Positions 5,170 to 27,815 of a DNA stretch of 32,680 nt are shown in pieces. The stretch is taken from positions 1 through 32,680 of the forward strand of contig CAIXWQ010001208.1 of NCBI GenBank assembly GCA_903923175.1, read 5' to 3'. The stretch comes from an uncultured delta proteobacterium. GTDB taxonomy: Bacteria; Myxococcota_A; Polyangia; Polyangiales; JADJMO01. Below the pieces are notes generated by a model. It searched no databases. It was not told the origin of the DNA and saw nothing but the letters and a program-made list of their open reading frames with translations. Each line of letters starts with the position of its first letter. Position 1 is the first letter of the stretch. The position numbers and the translations under genes were made by a program.

Positions 5170-6806
5170 CGCGAGAGCCCTCCGCCCCACGCGACGCCGT
5201 GCGCCGCGAGCCGGTTCTGGTAGTAGAGCAGCACCCTCGGATCGAGCAGCGCGACGCCGCCGTCACGCGTGCGGAGCACCGGCGAGGAGTGGTAGCCGTC
5301 GAACGCGCGCTCGGCGTCCTTGAGCAGCTCGGCGCCCGTCGCGCCGCGCACCGCGGGCGAGAGCACGATCTCGCCCTTCGCCTCCAGCTCGCCGAGCCGG
5401 CGCTGCGTCTCCTCGATCGCGGCCGTGATCTCGACGTACGGGATGGCGATCTCGTCCTTGCGGCGCACGAGCGCGAACAGGTCGGCGTTCGGGAACTTCG
5501 CCCGCAGCCGCGCGAACGCCGCCGTCGCGACCACGTGCGTCGGCATCGCCACGGTGTCGCGCAGGTACGCGCGCATCACCACGTCGGCGAGCTCGCGCGT
5601 GTACTGGACGTCGCGCCCCGCATCCATCACGACCTCGTCGCGCCCGAGCACCGGCTCGACGTACGTGCGCGGATCGACCTCGCGGCCGCGCGCGTCGTAG
5701 GAGCGGCCGTCGTCCTCGACCTTGTTGCCGAACGGATCGACGGGATCGCAGAAGCGCACCACGCAGCTCTCTTCCATCTGGAAGAGCTTGCGCACGAAGG
5801 CGTTGATGCGGCCGAAGCGCGTGCTCTCGTCGTCCTCGATGATGTAGCGCGCCTTGCCCGCCTCCTTGAGGTGGTCGTCGACCAGCGTCTCGGCCTCGAG
5901 CGTCAGCATGTAGTTGATGGTCGCGGGGACGAAGAAGACCTTGCGCGGCCGGCCCGCGCGCGAGGTGCGCACGAAGGCCTCGAGGCCGGTGCCCGCGAGC
6001 CCGAGCTTGAGCTTGCGCTCCACGCCGCCGCTGCGCGAGCGCGTGCCGCCCGGGAAGAAGAGCGAGTGGAACCCGCGCTCGATCAGGATGCACGAGTAGG
6101 CCTTCAGCACGTGCTTGTAGACCTCGTGCCGCAGCCGCCGATCGACGCGGTAGGCGCCGAGGTTGCGCATGAAGAACGAGAGGATCGGGTTGGAGAAGAG
6201 GTTCTTCCCCGCGCCGTACGTGACCGGCGGCAGCCGCGTGCTCTCGAGCGCGTAGGCGAACACCGGCGAGTCGAGGTTCGACAGGTGCGTCGGCACGTAC
6301 ACGACGGTGCCGAGCTGCGCGAGCTTGCGGATGCGATCGATCGGCCCGCCGGTGTGCACGCGATCGGCGAGCGGGCCGCCGCGCAGCAGGTAGAGCGGAT
6401 CGTTCTGCACGAGCACCTGCGGGCTCAGGAAGATCGACAGGCTCGCCGGCAACACGCGGTTCGCGAACATGTAGACGCGGCGATCGAACTTGCCGGCGAC
6501 GTCGCGCGCGTGCACCTCGATCACGTCGCGGAGCAGCTTGCGGGCGCCCGGATCGTCGATCGAGCCGAGGGTGCGCGCGAGCTTGCGCCAGATCGGCAGC
6601 TCGTCGCGCTCGCGCCCGCCCGTCGACTCGAGCCTCCGGATCTCGTGGTAGGCGGCGTCGTTGAGCAGGTAGATCGGGTCGCGCGCCTCGGCGAGGACGC
6701 GCTCCACGACCGCCCGCACGAGCTCCTCGCGCTGCTCGTTGAAGTGGAAGATCGGCGCTTGCACGAGGGCGAGCGTACACGAGCGCGTGTCAGGGGCGCG
6801 TGGCAC
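5166..6806 (-). CDS. Glycerol-3-phosphate acyltransferase (PlsB/GPAT-like)
   Basis: This 546-aa protein is of the PlsB/GPAT acyltransferase family, which acylates sn-glycerol 3-phosphate at the cytoplasmic face of the inner membrane. Motif I is THLSNLD, with catalytic His174 and Asp179 (HX4D). Motif III reads FFPGGTRSRSG (250-260), so the Glu of the common FPEGTRSR is Gly here. Motif IV is VPATINYML. The C-terminal LLYYQNRLAAH recalls the PlsB C-terminus. The N-terminal 130 residues form a helical region as in PlsB. The GTG at 6806 is the first start in frame; it has no strong ribosome-binding site, so a slightly later start is possible. The gene ends in an ATGA overlap with the GpsA-like gene, so the pair may form a supply-and-acylation unit. 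Confidence 0.82.
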   Translation of the reverse strand: MPRAPDTRSCTLALVQAPIFHFNEQREELVRAVVERVLAEARDPIYLLNDAAYHEIRRLESTGGRERDELPIWRKLARTLGSIDDPGARKLLRDVIEVHARDVAGKFDRRVYMFANRVLPASLSIFLSPQVLVQNDPLYLLRGGPLADRVHTGGPIDRIRKLAQLGTVVYVPTHLSNLDSPVFAYALESTRLPPVTYGAGKNLFSNPILSFFMRNLGAYRVDRRLRHEVYKHVLKAYSCILIERGFHSLFFPGGTRSRSGGVERKLKLGLAGTGLEAFVRTSRAGRPRKVFFVPATINYMLTLEAETLVDDHLKEAGKARYIIEDDESTRFGRINAFVRKLFQMEESCVVRFCDPVDPFGNKVEDDGRSYDARGREVDPRTYVEPVLGRDEVVMDAGRDVQYTRELADVVMRAYLRDTVAMPTHVVATAAFARLRAKFPNADLFALVRRKDEIAIPYVEITAAIEETQRRLGELEAKGEIVLSPAVRGATGAELLKDAERAFDGYHSSPVLRTRDGGVALLDPRVLLYYQNRLAAHGVAWGGGLSR

Positions 6807-6939
6807 ATCGGCGCGGCGCGCGTGGCCTGGGGCACGCGCTGCGTCGTGGAGTCACGCTTCGCCGCACGTTTGTCGCCGCCTCGGGCCGGCTTGCCGCGGG
6901 GGCACGCGGGGGCACGCGGCTTGTAGAGGGCGTCGCGCC

Positions 6940-8124
6940 ATGGAGGCCTGCGAGATCCCCGCCCGTGCCGGCGACCCCGAGCGTGCGTACGCGTTCGTGC
7001 CGCTCCTGATCGCGCTCACCCTCGGCGTGCTCGGCGTGCGCGCGCTCGATGGCCTGTACCTCCGCGGCATGCACCATCAGCCGCTGTACCTGGCGCTCGG
7101 CCTCGCGATGGCGCTCCCCGCAGCGTTCCTGCTGCGCACGCGCTCCGCGTTGCGCGCCGCCTACGCGCTCTACGCCGCCGGGCTGCTTGTGATGCTGCTG
7201 GCCCTCGCGCGCGGCCACGATGGCTTCGACGCGCGCTGGCTCTCGCTCGGTCACGGCGTGCGCATCCGCGTCGCCGAGCCGATGGCGCTCGCGCTGGTGC
7301 TCGCCCTCGCGCGCACCAGCGGCGCGCCGGCCCCGCGCTGGCTCGCGCCGCTGCTCGTGCTCGCGCCTTGCCTGGTGGCCCTCGCGGGGCGTGATTTCGC
7401 CTCGGTCGCGACCTTCCTCGCGATCGCCGCGGTCGTGCTGATCGCGGAGGGGCGCGCGTGGCTCGTGCTCGGCGCGGGGGCGTGCGCGATCGCGGGCGCG
7501 CCGATCTTCTACCGCTGCCTGCACGGGTATCAGCGCCAGCGGATCGCGGAGTTCCTCGGCCCGTCGGATCCGCTCGGCGCGGGCTGGATGCCGGCGCAGG
7601 TGCGCGCGATGGTGCGCGGCGGCGGCTTCTCGGGCGCGCCGAGCCCGCACGAGGCGAGCCGCGCGTTCGGCGACGCGGAGGTCGCCTTCCCGGTCCTCGC
7701 GCGCCACTGGGGCTTCGTCGGCGCGCTCCTCGCGATCGCGCTCTTCGCCGCGTTGATCGTCTTCGCGCTGCGCACGGCCTCGCGCGCGCGCTCCCGTGGC
7801 GGCGCGCTGATCGCGCTCGGCCTCGCCGCGTGGCTCGCGTGGAAGACCGCGGTCGGGCTCGCGATCGCGCTCGGCGTCGCGCCGATCGTGGCGATCTCGA
7901 TGCCGATGCTCGGCTACGGCGGCACCAACGTGGTCGCGACGCTGCTCGCGACCGGGGTGCTCGCGTCGATCGCGCGTGAGGCGCGCGCCGGCCGCGAATC
8001 ACCGGAAATTCCAGGCGATCCGCTCCTGCCGTCGCTGCTCCATCACGCCGACGCGCTCGCCCTCGGCGTCACCCTCGTCGCGGCGCTGATCGCCGCGCGG
8101 CTCTTCGTGCTTCAGGTCGCGTGA
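6940..8124 (+). CDS. SEDS-family (RodA/FtsW-like) membrane protein, divergent
   Basis: This 394-aa multipass protein has about ten hydrophobic segments and belongs to the SEDS family of peptidoglycan glycosyltransferases (RodA, FtsW, SpoVE). The best signature is YQRQRIAEFLGPSDPLGAGW (197-216), matching the extracellular loop of RodA. Near the C-terminus MPMLGYGGTN matches the family's SYGGxS/N. The essential Asp of the HTDFIFAVL-type motif is not in place: the segment reads GDAEVAFPVLARHWGF (244-259), with Glu247 or the shifted Asp245 as the nearest acid. The usual QPSE is RVAE. The ATG at 6940 is preferred because AGAGGG lies at 6925-6930 and the hydrophobic region begins soon after. It is divergent from the acyltransferase gene. 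No class B PBP partner is next to it. It may be a specialised or altered paralogue. Confidence 0.8.
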   Translation: MEACEIPARAGDPERAYAFVPLLIALTLGVLGVRALDGLYLRGMHHQPLYLALGLAMALPAAFLLRTRSALRAAYALYAAGLLVMLLALARGHDGFDARWLSLGHGVRIRVAEPMALALVLALARTSGAPAPRWLAPLLVLAPCLVALAGRDFASVATFLAIAAVVLIAEGRAWLVLGAGACAIAGAPIFYRCLHGYQRQRIAEFLGPSDPLGAGWMPAQVRAMVRGGGFSGAPSPHEASRAFGDAEVAFPVLARHWGFVGALLAIALFAALIVFALRTASRARSRGGALIALGLAAWLAWKTAVGLAIALGVAPIVAISMPMLGYGGTNVVATLLATGVLASIAREARAGRESPEIPGDPLLPSLLHHADALALGVTLVAALIAARLFVLQVA

Positions 8125-8128
8125 GCGC

Positions 8129-8845
8129 TCACCAGTGCAGCACGGCGACCGCGTCGAGGTCGAACCCGGCCATCCCCTGCTGCGCCGGGCGGTCCGAGCG
8201 CAGATCGCGGATGCGCACGAACTTCGCCTTCTTCACGCCGATCGCCGCGAGGTCGAACCCGTCGCCGCCCGCCTTCGCGCTGCTGCCGAGGTCGACCGGG
8301 CTGTCGGGCGTCGCGAAGACGGGGCGCCACCCCGCGCAGTCGCCGTAGCTCGGCGGCCCCGATTTCGGATCGCAGGCGAACGTCGTCCAGGTGACGCCGT
8401 CCTCGCTCACCGAGACCTCGCCGAGCTCGGTGAAGACGTTCTTCGGATCGTTGGCGATCTCGAAGGCGTTCTCGAACACGATGAAGTCGGGGCCGTCGCC
8501 GTCGACGATCTCGCTCTCGAAGCCGAGCACGACCTCGCCGCCGTTGCCGAGCGACAGCACGTCGGTCGAGCCGTAGCAGCACCCGCCGCCGTGCGGTGGG
8601 CCCTGGATGATGCTCGGCAGCTGGTCCTGGCCGTAGCCGCCGCCGTCGCCGAGCGTGAACGACACGACCGTGGTCGCGTACTTCGCCGGCTGCCCGACCG
8701 GGGCGACCGTGGGGTGGCTGCCGACGTCGGCGCCGGGCAGGGGGCCGCCGTCGCTGCCGAGCCCTTGCTGGGTGGAGGTAGGATCGGCGGCGCCGCAGGC
8801 TGCGAGCGTCACGCACAGACACAACGAGAGAGCACGGGTCGGCAT
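8129..8845 (-). CDS. Cobalamin-riboswitch-controlled secreted lipoprotein
   Basis: This 238-aa lipoprotein has signal peptide MPTRALSLCLCVTLAACG with lipobox LAAC. The mature part contains GGYGQDQLPSIIQGPPHGGG, LSLGNGGEVVLGFESEIVDG, GDGPDFIVFENAFEI, EVSVSEDGVTWTTFACD and a C-terminal GFDLDAVAVLHW. From memory these motifs occur in bacterial proteins labelled only 'cell surface protein'; the biochemical role is unknown. A cobalamin riboswitch lies in its 5' leader, so expression is probably repressed when adenosylcobalamin is plentiful. The inferred job is surface capture of a cobalamin or a B12-dependent need. The ATG at 8845 is chosen because GAGG sits a few bases upstream and the signal peptide begins there. 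No TonB-dependent receptor or btu transport gene is nearby. It ends 4 bp from the convergent SEDS gene. Confidence 0.8.
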   Translation of the reverse strand: MPTRALSLCLCVTLAACGAADPTSTQQGLGSDGGPLPGADVGSHPTVAPVGQPAKYATTVVSFTLGDGGGYGQDQLPSIIQGPPHGGGCCYGSTDVLSLGNGGEVVLGFESEIVDGDGPDFIVFENAFEIANDPKNVFTELGEVSVSEDGVTWTTFACDPKSGPPSYGDCAGWRPVFATPDSPVDLGSSAKAGGDGFDLAAIGVKKAKFVRIRDLRSDRPAQQGMAGFDLDAVAVLHW

Positions 8846-8890
8846 CGATCCTCGTCGCGCCATCGCCCGGGCGCGCACAGGGGCATCGAA

Positions 8891-9070
8891 GAGGCCAGGT
8901 CTCCGGGCTTTCGGATCGTCCTTCCGTCGACTCCTTCCCAGGCTCCGAAACGCGCGACCGCAAGGACGCGCGCTCGGTGATCCCAGTGGCTATTGTCGAC
9001 GGTCGTCCCCGAATTACCGTGGCGGGCGCCGCGCCGGATTCACACCGGCTTCCCTCTTGGCGTCGAGACG
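8891..9070 (-). promoter_or_regulatory. Cobalamin (B12) riboswitch
   Basis: Read on the minus strand, the region between two divergent genes carries the ordered conserved boxes of the cobalamin riboswitch. They are AAGAGGGAAGCCGGTG followed by GAATCCGGC (9033-9058), CGCCACGGTAAT (9013-9024), the B12-box-like TAGCCACTGGGAT (8980-8992), GGGAAGGAG, and the 3' box AGCCCGGAGACCTGGCCTC (8891-8909). Order, spacing and total length (about 180 nt) fit the family. A GAGGC/GCCTC pairing between 9099-9103 and the 3' end could close P1, giving a 5' boundary nearer 9105. The aptamer ends about 45 nt before the start codon at 8845. No U-rich terminator was seen, so control is probably at translation; the 3' CCTC could pair with the GAGG ribosome-binding site. 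Confidence 0.9.
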
Positions 9071-9233
9071 ATCCGCGGGATGCGGGGCGGCGCGACGAGC
9101 CTCGACGGTCTGTGCGGCGACGCTAGCCCGGACGGGGAGGTCGCTCAAGCGCGGCGCGGAGCGAGAACCCACCGCCCGCGCGGCCGGGCGCGCGCGGCCG
9201 GCATCGCGCAACGGCTGCGTCTATCCTGGAGCG

Positions 9234-10436
<1,203 letters not shown>

Positions 10437-25102: not shown

Positions 25103-26164
25103 ATGGGACGCCGCGCGCACCGCCACGCGATCGCCGCCGGCGCGTGGGGCGCGTGGGGCGCGTGCGTCGCGGTCGGCTGCGCGCTGCTCGCCGGGGCTGC
25201 ACGCGCGGAGGCACTGGTGGCGGCGGTGGCGCCGGCGGAGGGCGATCCGCGCGCCGAGGCGACGCTCGCCGAGCTCCGTCTCCTGCCACGCGGGCCGACG
25301 CTCCCCGACCTGACGCACGTGGCGGCCGAGGGCTCGTTCGAGCAGGTGACCGCCTCGGTGATCCCTCGCGGCGGCGCGGACCCGCTCGGCGCGCACCTCT
25401 TCCACGCGGAGGTGGAGCTGCCGCTCGCGCGCTGGCTGTTCGTCGGCGGCACGTACGGCGCGGCGGTCGCGCGCGCGGCGAACGGCGATGCCGCGAACGG
25501 CGCGACCGGCGTGACCGGCGAGACGCGCTTCGTCTCCGCGCAGCCCGAGGCGTTCGCGCGCGTCGTGCACCAGGGGCTCGGCGCGAGCTACACGCTCGGC
25601 GCGGGGCTCGGCGTGGTGCCGCCGCTCGTCACGTACGACGGGCTCGACGACGAGCGTCGGCTCGCGCAGGCCACCGCCTCCGCGCTCGTGGGGATCCTGC
25701 AGCCGTGGGACGTCCCGCTGTACCTCGATCGTCGCCTCACGCTGCGGCCGTGGATCGACATGCGCACGGCGCGCAAGCACCTGGTGGCGCAGTTCCGCGG
25801 GCGCATGGACTTCTCCTTCCGGACGAGCGCGCCGCCGGCGCTGCTGCCGACCGACACGCGCGCGCAGGCGGGCGATCTCGAGCTCTTCGCGTCGGCGGCG
25901 CTCTACCTCGGGTGGCGGCCGACGCGCGAGGTCTCGCTCGGGCTCGAAGCGTGGGAGGTCTACTTGCTCAAGACCCCGTTGCCGCTCGCCGACCGCGATC
26001 GCGTGACGTTCGCGCTCTCGCCGAGCGTGCGGCTGCACTTCCGCTGGGTGGAGCCGGCGCTGAGCGTGCTGGTGCCGCTCGGGCGGCCGCTGTTCGGCGT
26101 GGCGGAGGGGTACGTGGCGTTGCGGGTGGATGTGCGGGTTTGGTTGGAGCGGCCGCCGCTCTAG
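25103..26164 (+). CDS. Hypothetical outer-membrane beta-barrel protein
   Basis: This 353-aa protein has a basic N-terminus and signal peptide (GAWGAWGACVAVGCALLAG, cleavage near AARAEA). The mature part looks like a beta-barrel: amphipathic strands such as FHAEVELPLARWLFVGGTYG, LYLGWRPTREVSLGLEAWEV, VRLHFRWVEPALSVLVPLG and the last strand YVALRVDVRVWLERPPL. No family is recognised. Part of the signal-peptide core is encoded by three near-identical 9-bp units (25139-25165). The ATG at 25103 is chosen because the signal peptide begins there. A structured repeat begins three bases after the stop. The 257-bp gap to the divergent gene holds the attenuator and presumably both promoters. Confidence 0.7.
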   Translation: MGRRAHRHAIAAGAWGAWGACVAVGCALLAGAARAEALVAAVAPAEGDPRAEATLAELRLLPRGPTLPDLTHVAAEGSFEQVTASVIPRGGADPLGAHLFHAEVELPLARWLFVGGTYGAAVARAANGDAANGATGVTGETRFVSAQPEAFARVVHQGLGASYTLGAGLGVVPPLVTYDGLDDERRLAQATASALVGILQPWDVPLYLDRRLTLRPWIDMRTARKHLVAQFRGRMDFSFRTSAPPALLPTDTRAQAGDLELFASAALYLGWRPTREVSLGLEAWEVYLLKTPLPLADRDRVTFALSPSVRLHFRWVEPALSVLVPLGRPLFGVAEGYVALRVDVRVWLERPPL

Positions 26165-26166
26165 GC

Positions 26167-26376
26167 GGAGGCATTCCATGCCTCCGGCGGGCAGAGGTGC
26201 ATCGGGGGGCTGCACCCCCCGCGGCACCTCTGCACTCCCGCTCCCCCGCTTGGGGCTCGTTGTGTTCGGAGGGTCGCAGGAGGCTTCGCTTCGCTACGCC
26301 CCGTTGCTCCGACGGGGGTCGGCTCGACGAGGGTGCGGGGCTCCGGGGCGACGCTCCGCTATCGGGGCGTGCGGGA
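26167..26376. repeat. Structured intergenic repeat, copy A
   Basis: This element of about 210 bp starts three bases after the stop of the outer-membrane gene. Hairpin 1 (26167-26185) has arms GGAGGCAT / ATGCCTCC around a TCC loop. Hairpin 2 (26191-26233) has arms GCAGAGGTGC / GCACCTCTGC with inner GGGGGG / CCCCCC. A conserved tail (26268-26340) includes GGAGGGTCGCAGGAGG and GTTGCTCCGACGGGG. It is a direct repeat of copy B at 27825-28045, and the hairpins differ by paired substitutions. Confidence 0.88.
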
Positions 26377-26444
26377 GTTGCCGTGGCGCGGCGCGTGCGG
26401 TTTTGGGAGGGGCGGGGCGTGGGGGGTCGGTAGGATCAGGGGCG

Positions 26445-27815
26445 ATGCACGTTCATCTGATCGCGCCGTCGAACGAGGACTCGACGTACATCAAGCCGCT
26501 CTGGGTCGCGACCTTGGCGGCGCATACGCCGCCCGACGTGGAGGTGACGTTTCGGGACGACGGGCTGGAGCCGCTCGACGTCTCGCGCGCGCTGGACGGC
26601 GCGGGGAGGCTGCCGGATCTCGTCGGGTTGAGCGTGACCTCGAAGACGGCGGCGCGGGCGTATGCGATCGCGGACGCGTATCGGGCGCGGGGCGTGAAAG
26701 TGGTGCTCGGGGGCATCCACGTGACGGCGCTGCCGGACGAAGGGCTCGAGCACGCGGACGCCATCGTGGTGGGCGAGGCGGAGGGGCTCTGGCCGCAGGT
26801 GATCGAGGACGCGCGGCGCGGCAAGCTCGGCAAGACGCGGTCGCTCGCGAGCCCTTCGCTGTACCGGCACGAGGGGTTCCCGACGCTGGAGAACCTGCCC
26901 CTCCCGCGGCGCGATCTCTTCACGTCGCGGCGGTACGTGCCGTTCGACGTCGTGCAGACCACGCGCGGGTGCCCGTACCCGTGCGAGTTCTGCAGCGTGT
27001 CGACCTACAACGGCACGACGTTTCGCTTCCGCCCGGTGCGCGACGTGATCGCGGAGCTCGAGACGGTGGGGCCGCGCGTGCTCTTCGGCGACGACAACGT
27101 GATGGTGCACGCGCGCTACAGCCACGAGCTGTTCGAGGCGATGGCGCCGCTGAAGAAGTCGTGGGTCGCGCAGGCGTCGCTGGCGGCGCTGCACAAGGTC
27201 GAGAACGTCGAGGTGATGGCGCGCGCGGGGTGCAAGGCGCTGTTCATCGGCTTCGAGTCGGTGGACGACACGACGGTGCGCTCGGTGGGCAAGAAGCAGA
27301 ACAAGCCGTCGAAGTACGTGGAGATCGTGCGGCAGCTCGCCGACCACGGCATCGCGGTGTGGGGGAGCTTCGTGTTCGGGCTCGACGAGGACACGCCGGC
27401 GTCGTTCGAGCGGACGGTCGAGTTCTGCGTGCAGTCGAAGCTGACGATGGCGCTGTTCGCGCTGCTCACGCCGTACCCGGGCACGCGGCTCTACAAGCGG
27501 CTCGAGGCCGAAGGGAGGCTGACCAAGCCGCGGTGGTGGCTCGAGAGCGAGCACGACGCGGGCGCGCCGTTCTACGTGCCGAAGCAGATGTCGCGCGAGG
27601 TGCTGCGCGCGTCGTGGGTGAAGGCGTGGCAGGCGATGTACTCGTATGGGTCGATCGCGCGGCGGTTCGATCCTGCGTTCGATCACTCGTGGATCCAGAA
27701 CTTGGCGTACTGGCCGATCAACTTGCTGATGCACGAGCTCGCGGAGCGGAAGATCGCGGGGGGCGATCGCGGGTTTCGCAAGCATCGGGCGTTGGATCTT
27801 CCTTTCGGTCTTTAG
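26445..27815 (+). CDS. Radical SAM enzyme with N-terminal B12-binding-type domain
   Basis: This 456-aa protein is a radical SAM enzyme. The N-terminal domain (1-150) resembles the cobalamin-binding fold found in this class (IAPSNEDS, DLVGLSVTSK, VVLGGIHVTALPDEGLEHAD, VVGEAEGLWP), without a DxHxxG motif. The linker LPLPRRDLF is typical. The radical SAM core has CPYPCEFC with cluster ligands Cys176, Cys180 and Cys183, followed by RFRPVRDVIAELE and GDDNV. Later elements are FIGFESVDDTTVRSVGKKQN, GSFVFGLDED and PYPGTRLYKRLEAEGRL. This subgroup contains methyltransferases and cyclases with lipid-like or tetrapyrrole substrates; the substrate here cannot be named. The ATG at 26445 is preceded by AGGGG at 26437-26441. 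Copies of a structured repeat lie on both sides. Confidence 0.9.
   Translation: MHVHLIAPSNEDSTYIKPLWVATLAAHTPPDVEVTFRDDGLEPLDVSRALDGAGRLPDLVGLSVTSKTAARAYAIADAYRARGVKVVLGGIHVTALPDEGLEHADAIVVGEAEGLWPQVIEDARRGKLGKTRSLASPSLYRHEGFPTLENLPLPRRDLFTSRRYVPFDVVQTTRGCPYPCEFCSVSTYNGTTFRFRPVRDVIAELETVGPRVLFGDDNVMVHARYSHELFEAMAPLKKSWVAQASLAALHKVENVEVMARAGCKALFIGFESVDDTTVRSVGKKQNKPSKYVEIVRQLADHGIAVWGSFVFGLDEDTPASFERTVEFCVQSKLTMALFALLTPYPGTRLYKRLEAEGRLTKPRWWLESEHDAGAPFYVPKQMSREVLRASWVKAWQAMYSYGSIARRFDPAFDHSWIQNLAYWPINLLMHELAERKIAGGDRGFRKHRALDLPFGL

Follow-up and report, generated by a model that had tools for sequence, protein, structure and literature searches.

A complete cobalamin riboswitch upstream of a BtuH-like lipoprotein gene in an uncultured Myxococcota bacterium, a probable cobamide-capture locus

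The window, which is the whole stretch of 32,680 nucleotides analysed here, carries on its minus strand a lipoprotein gene (8129..8845) that starts with ATG at 8845-8843, has 238 codons and whose stop codon ends at 8129. An in-frame ATG at 8863 lies upstream and gives a 244-aa alternative, and the residue numbers used below follow this 244-aa frame (P0001). The N-terminus of the protein, MPTRALSLCLCVTLAAC, reads like a lipoprotein signal with the lipobox LAAC (8795..8806, minus strand, from the translation), in which the lipid-anchored Cys is encoded at 8795-8797. A probable ribosome-binding site, ACGAGG (8850..8855, minus strand), was read from the sequence 4 nt before the ATG at 8845. Based on the open reading frame, NF033170, AlphaFold2/Foldseek and hhalign, the product was assigned as a BtuH-like lipoprotein of the LIC_13355-like superfamily. 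Its conserved globular domain comprises residues 58-244 (8132..8692, minus strand; AlphaFold2 and alignment A1).

A complete cobalamin riboswitch aptamer (RF00174) is located at 8877..9115 on the minus strand. The cmscan search with Infernal and Rfam 15 covered positions 1-189 of the 189-position model with 79.1 bits (E 4e-18), far above the gathering threshold of 31.5, and the Rfam scan of the window gave no other match. The original prediction, that all boxes of a cobalamin riboswitch are present on the minus strand and that a gene for a 238-aa lipoprotein follows, is thus borne out by the complete aptamer, the open reading frame, the ribosome-binding site and the lipobox. It had put the spacing at about 45 nt, which is right when the count begins where the B12-box region ends, while the ATG at 8845 lies about 32 nt past the end of the aptamer model. 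The aptamer was also recovered by our covariance model R1, of which it is one of the 19 seed sequences.

Between the aptamer and the gene, RNA folding gave a candidate expression-platform hairpin with a 6-bp stem (8856..8875, minus strand), which adjoins the ribosome-binding site on its 5' side and whose loop, CGGGCGAU, pairs with CGCCCG of the L5 region. Known class-I switches have a hairpin with a loop complementary to L5 that ends at the ribosome-binding site. In this GC-rich sequence, both the stability of the hairpin and the complementarity of its loop with L5 are within the expectation from shuffled sequences, so we can only speculate that it is the expression platform of the riboswitch. 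A kissing-loop platform kept among relatives was considered and found no support: complements of 5 nt or longer were present in 11 of 28, compared with 57% in shuffles.

The lipoprotein gene stands alone as the single gene behind the riboswitch. It is convergent with an FtsW/RodA gene (6739-8124, plus strand), and a divergent lipoprotein gene (9233-10436, plus strand) lies upstream of the riboswitch. This divergent gene starts about 120 bases from the riboswitch and encodes a repetitive, right-handed beta-helix-like protein without a Pfam match. The tested neighbours included no TonB, btu or cob gene, in agreement with what was predicted from the sequence. Elsewhere in the window just one gene with a link to B12 was seen (26130-27815, plus strand), 17 kb off; its product is a radical SAM protein that carries a B12-binding domain (PF04055, PF02310, DUF4070).

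The lipoprotein matched no Pfam family at E <= 1. In NCBIfam it matched NF033170 (LIC_13355) over residues 62-206 (E 4e-10), scoring 39.3 bits where the curated cut-off is 120. It is a single-copy gene without paralogues in its own genome, and homologues are widespread, being present in 150 of 290 genomes of the class and in 125 of 189 genomes across the phylum. Where carriers are named, most of them belong to Myxococcota (Polyangium, Myxococcus and Lujinxingia, for example). An alignment of 30 diverse homologues (A1) showed a conserved core, GxDFIVFENxF, in which N132 is invariant and F134 nearly so; in the window protein these residues belong to the motif FENAF (8462..8476, minus strand). 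The AlphaFold2 model had a mean pLDDT of 84 and was mostly above 85 from residue 61 on. A literature search, mostly outside subscription papers, found no report of either this lipoprotein family or BtuH in Myxococcota.

The model was compared with all PDB chains by Foldseek, and known cobalamin binders came near the top. The first rank was BtuG1 of Bacteroides thetaiotaomicron (8blw_B, E 5.9e-5; the output gives this match without its aligned region), and the fourth was B12-bound BtuH2 (7biz_B, E 2.3e-3). BtuG1 is a BtuG propeller fused to a BtuH domain (PMC12751083). The remaining matches were mostly carbohydrate-binding or discoidin-type domains. The TM-scores by query length were modest, at 0.42-0.46 with multi-domain chains as targets, and homology was therefore tried separately by profile alignment. 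The hhalign comparison of the family with the BtuH2/BtuG1 pair gave a probability of 87.8, E 3.3e-6 and 42% identity over 48 columns, with a score of 46.3 compared with at most 20.0 in 100 column shuffles and 12.0 for the reversed version. The BtuH chains had been retrieved from the PDB with a BtuH-like consensus, which served as bait only; the homology test used the retrieved BtuH2 and BtuG1 chain sequences. Neither 7biz nor 8blw was reached by phmmer or by the HMMER profile of the family at E <= 1, and searches of the PDB with the lipoprotein sequence or profile returned no B12 protein. The published criterion for the BtuH family is BLASTX E <= 0.03 to BT1488/1490/1956; the simple searches here were made with phmmer and the family profile. 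Taken from sequence and model, these results support distant homology between the predicted domain and the domain with which BtuH binds B12. The protein had been described as one of unknown function; it does have a precedent, as BtuH is a studied distant relative.

According to PMC8941943, Asn399 and Phe401 of BtuH2 contact B12 at its phosphate and lower ligand. By hhalign, with BtuH2 numbering taken from the alignment of 7biz_A, they correspond to N132 and F134 of the FENAF motif. The likely counterpart of Gln333 is Q79 (GYGQDQLP), which is variable in A1, and the Tyr, Trp and His contacts of BtuH2 fall outside the 48 columns of supported alignment. Thus only two of the eight contact residues named in PMC8941943 can be matched. 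This low number fits with a protein that is regulated by B12 and does not bind it, but assists the uptake machinery in a structural or accessory role (as a scaffold, a vesicle protein or a receptor-associated lipoprotein); BtuL and BtuK2, which are encoded in B12 operons of B. thetaiotaomicron, indeed gave no cobalamin binding (PMC12751083). We consider such a non-binding role unlikely, because the two residues that can be matched are those at the phosphate and lower ligand, N132 is invariant in the 30 diverse homologues, and the nearest solved structures are B12 binders.

If the protein takes part in cobamide capture, its homologues should be found with riboswitches elsewhere, and this is what the survey showed. 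A hundred homologue loci were fetched, and R1, built from 19 seed riboswitches that had been identified either with Rfam or from the order of their boxes, was run on 99 of them plus the window. Among 101 homologues of the class, window included, 64 were preceded on the same strand by a riboswitch at a distance of up to 5 kb; it stood directly in front of the gene, within 600 nt, for 40 of them, at 0.6-2.2 kb for 18 and farther away for six. R1 gave 75 matches in the 1.4 Mb of homologue loci. Scans of 14 genomes found 39 riboswitches in about 135 Mb, and from this density about 0.4 matches would be expected by chance in 1.4 Mb. As the seeds of R1 came partly from loci of the class, 40 held-out loci were taken from other classes of the phylum. 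Of these, 32 had a riboswitch, which without exception preceded the gene on the same strand by no more than 2 kb, though some of the held-out genomes may overlap the named loci scanned with R1. One held-out locus had a second, unrelated riboswitch. Rfam's own model confirmed nine of 11 held-out loci that were rescanned, and the other two were also without an R1 match. Named loci scanned with R1, including those of Myxococcus and Lujinxingia, showed the same pairing.

When a TonB receptor or a BtuG-like propeller is counted as well as a riboswitch, 76 of the 101 homologues of the class have such a link. The clustering of hand-called open reading frames was crude, and the key counts were repeated with profiles. 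The other 25, many of them Polyangium-like, have no riboswitch, receptor or propeller in the stretch that was read, and these unlinked homologues may be regulated otherwise or may have drifted in function. Seven Polyangium-like loci whose homologues are without riboswitch or receptor share a conserved neighbourhood, often with a histidine-kinase-like gene. The homologues without any B12 link, together with a platform hairpin that does not rise above chance, are what would be seen if the riboswitch were a remnant or a coincidence and the lipoprotein a general surface protein. We give this possibility next to no weight: pairing at 64 of 101 and 32 of 40 homologues, in many families and in Myxococcus and Lujinxingia, compares with well below one expected, and the held-out survey contradicts it. 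The original prediction had asked whether homologues go together with such riboswitches or with btuB-like genes, and these counts answer that they do.

The genes next to the homologues are of types known from B12 uptake. TonB-dependent receptors with Plug and barrel domains adjoin homologues, and for two of three receptors tested TIGR01779 (TonB-B12) was the best NCBIfam model, far under its cut-off. Beta-propeller lipoproteins adjoin homologues too, and the propeller profile matches solved BtuG chains with E 1e-5. At three loci of distant homologues the domain stands in a row with, or is fused to, DUF4465, together with a TonB receptor and behind a riboswitch, and the Pfam matches of DUF4465 at these loci have E 1e-49 to 1e-53. 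In two of them (L280 and L283) the DUF4465 and BtuH-like genes come first after the riboswitch, in either order, and the TonB receptor comes next; in the third (L282) the BtuH-like region and DUF4465 are apparently one protein of 542 aa. This apparent fusion (4951-6579 of L282, minus strand) has a PEP-CTERM tail, with the riboswitch before it and the TonB receptor after it. DUF4465 proteins, eight distant ones among them, bind B12 in experiments (PMC13398666).

At several loci of other Myxococcota classes (L249, L252, L262, L266 and others), a predicted lipoprotein of about 160-180 aa lies between the riboswitch and the BtuH-like gene; it has a motif like GEWxTNFGGxETIT, and one that was tested had no Pfam match. 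At three further loci (L240, L242 and L231), riboswitches precede MetE-like and class Ia-type ribonucleotide-reductase-like genes, which were recognised by eye as those of B12-independent isozymes.

Riboswitches of the relatives thus precede MetE-like, nrdA-like and cbiM genes as well, and such a wider regulon might link the riboswitch to a protein that captures some other aid in B12 shortage, for example a cobamide precursor, a cobalt complex or a prey component. LIC_13355 of Leptospira, which is reported to bind laminin and plasminogen (PMC11891782), also speaks for another ligand. We regard this as very improbable, since a row of genes that includes TonB receptors, BtuG-like propellers and DUF4465 marks a locus for uptake and not one for isozymes, and the structural likeness is to a B12-binding domain.

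The draft genome of the host is 10.7 Mb in size and 95.6% complete, and has one cobalamin riboswitch besides that of the window. At its locus (L004 7497-9162, contig C1121), this second riboswitch precedes the gene of a 447-aa lipoprotein of a 'TWGRHGGPLG' family, which follows riboswitches in each of the five genomes sampled from its family, and also in one that is Polyangium-like. It had no Pfam or NCBIfam match. Its assignment as BtuG was rejected: the middling model is beta-propeller-like, and no BtuG chain was among its best 50 structure matches. It probably represents a second, uncharacterised family of B12-regulated surface proteins.

The description of the lipoprotein as an orphan is correct for the locus and does not hold for the regulon, as BtuB operons, controlled by a separate riboswitch, are present at other sites in the genomes of relatives. 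In G246 and G234, two related genomes, one riboswitch precedes the lipoprotein gene, and a second one, at a different site, precedes the gene of a BtuB-like receptor followed by that of a propeller. With separate riboswitches, the capture protein and the receptor belong in these genomes to a regulon and not to an operon, and the orphan status is only local. The only BtuB-like receptor found in the host itself was a weak match (E 5e-23, 31% identity), on a 5.7-kb contig (C257) with 276 bases before the gene. Counterparts of this gene in the host's family had no riboswitch nearby.

The host genome has at least 24 matches to the B12-binding domain PF02310, one of them in a frame of methionine-synthase size, and CbiC was not found in the draft genome. 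It means that the host probably needs imported cobamide. Only 15 of the 290 genomes of the class have cbiC, a corrin-ring gene, so most of them probably depend on imported cobamides too. The idea that the lipoprotein tracks the loss of B12 synthesis was rejected, as it is carried by eight of 15 genomes with cbiC and by 142 of 275 without. One genome of the same genus as the host (G270) has CbiC and no lipoprotein, but with no correlation over 290 genomes this contrast is an anecdote.

Because of the kinship with BtuH and the recurrent riboswitch pairing in the phylum, scavenging of B12 is the most likely role of the 'orphan' protein. We consider it highly probable that the locus is a B12-repressed cobamide-capture gene, whose BtuH-like lipoprotein would pass cobamide to a BtuB-type receptor. 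When intracellular cobalamin is low, the leader would be open and the mRNA translatable. The lipoprotein would then be made, exported, lipidated and presumably shown on the outer membrane, where the domain is expected to grip cobamide partly on its nucleotide-loop and phosphate side via Asn132 and Phe134. The cobamide would be handed to a TonB-dependent BtuB-type receptor encoded elsewhere, and with plentiful B12 the riboswitch would close the leader and turn expression off.

Surface capture of B12 by dedicated lipoproteins has so far been described mainly for gut Bacteroides. Such capture lipoproteins are known, and a role as one of them is the best explanation of the present sequence and model results; what would be new is the occurrence in Myxococcota of a distant BtuH-like family with a single domain, controlled directly by a riboswitch. 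This distant version is now placed across the phylum, a large unnamed lipoprotein family gains a testable role, and candidate vitamin-binding residues are suggested. It also raises the question of whether B12 is bound by LIC_13355 of Leptospira, which has been investigated as an adhesin. A broader proposal joins two claims: that the small-lipoprotein superfamily, from Myxococcota to the LIC_13355 group, is in origin a family of cobamide-binding BtuH homologues, and that Myxococcota scavenge B12 with a full Bacteroides-style system of BtuB, BtuG-like, BtuH-like and DUF4465 proteins. We offer it tentatively, and rate the chance that both are true as somewhat below even.

Among known systems, LIC_13355 (NF033170) is an outer-membrane lipoprotein of similar size, to which the window protein is a remote match under the cut-off. 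Both cobalamin riboswitches reported for L. interrogans precede genes other than LIC_13355 (PMC3953431). DUF4465/BtuJ (PF14717, IPR027828) is a riboswitch-controlled extracellular B12 binder, which adjoins or is fused with the BtuH-like domain at the loci of distant homologues; the window protein has no PF14717 match and belongs to a different sequence family, so membership in DUF4465 was rejected. BtuG, the beta-propeller B12 lipoprotein, occurs at the same type of locus, and related propellers (clusters c3 and c7) adjoin many homologues, whereas the window protein matches a beta-sandwich-type domain and not a propeller. The closest comparison is with the BtuH family of Bacteroidetes, including BtuH1 (BT_1488), BtuH2 (BT_1956, 7BIZ) and the domain of BtuG1/BtuGH (BT_1490, 8BLW). 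Unlike these, the window protein is a single domain of about 185 aa, compared with about 260 aa for the BtuH domain, without PKD, propeller or the longer loops, and is encoded by a stand-alone gene in a Myxococcota host; its sequence likeness is seen by profile-profile comparison alone, and Gln333 is not conserved. It shares with BtuH the predicted lipoprotein nature, the locus with a cobalamin riboswitch, the best fold match in the PDB, the naming as 'cell surface protein', and an aligned core with the equivalents of Asn399 and Phe401 followed by an acidic SEPG-type segment.
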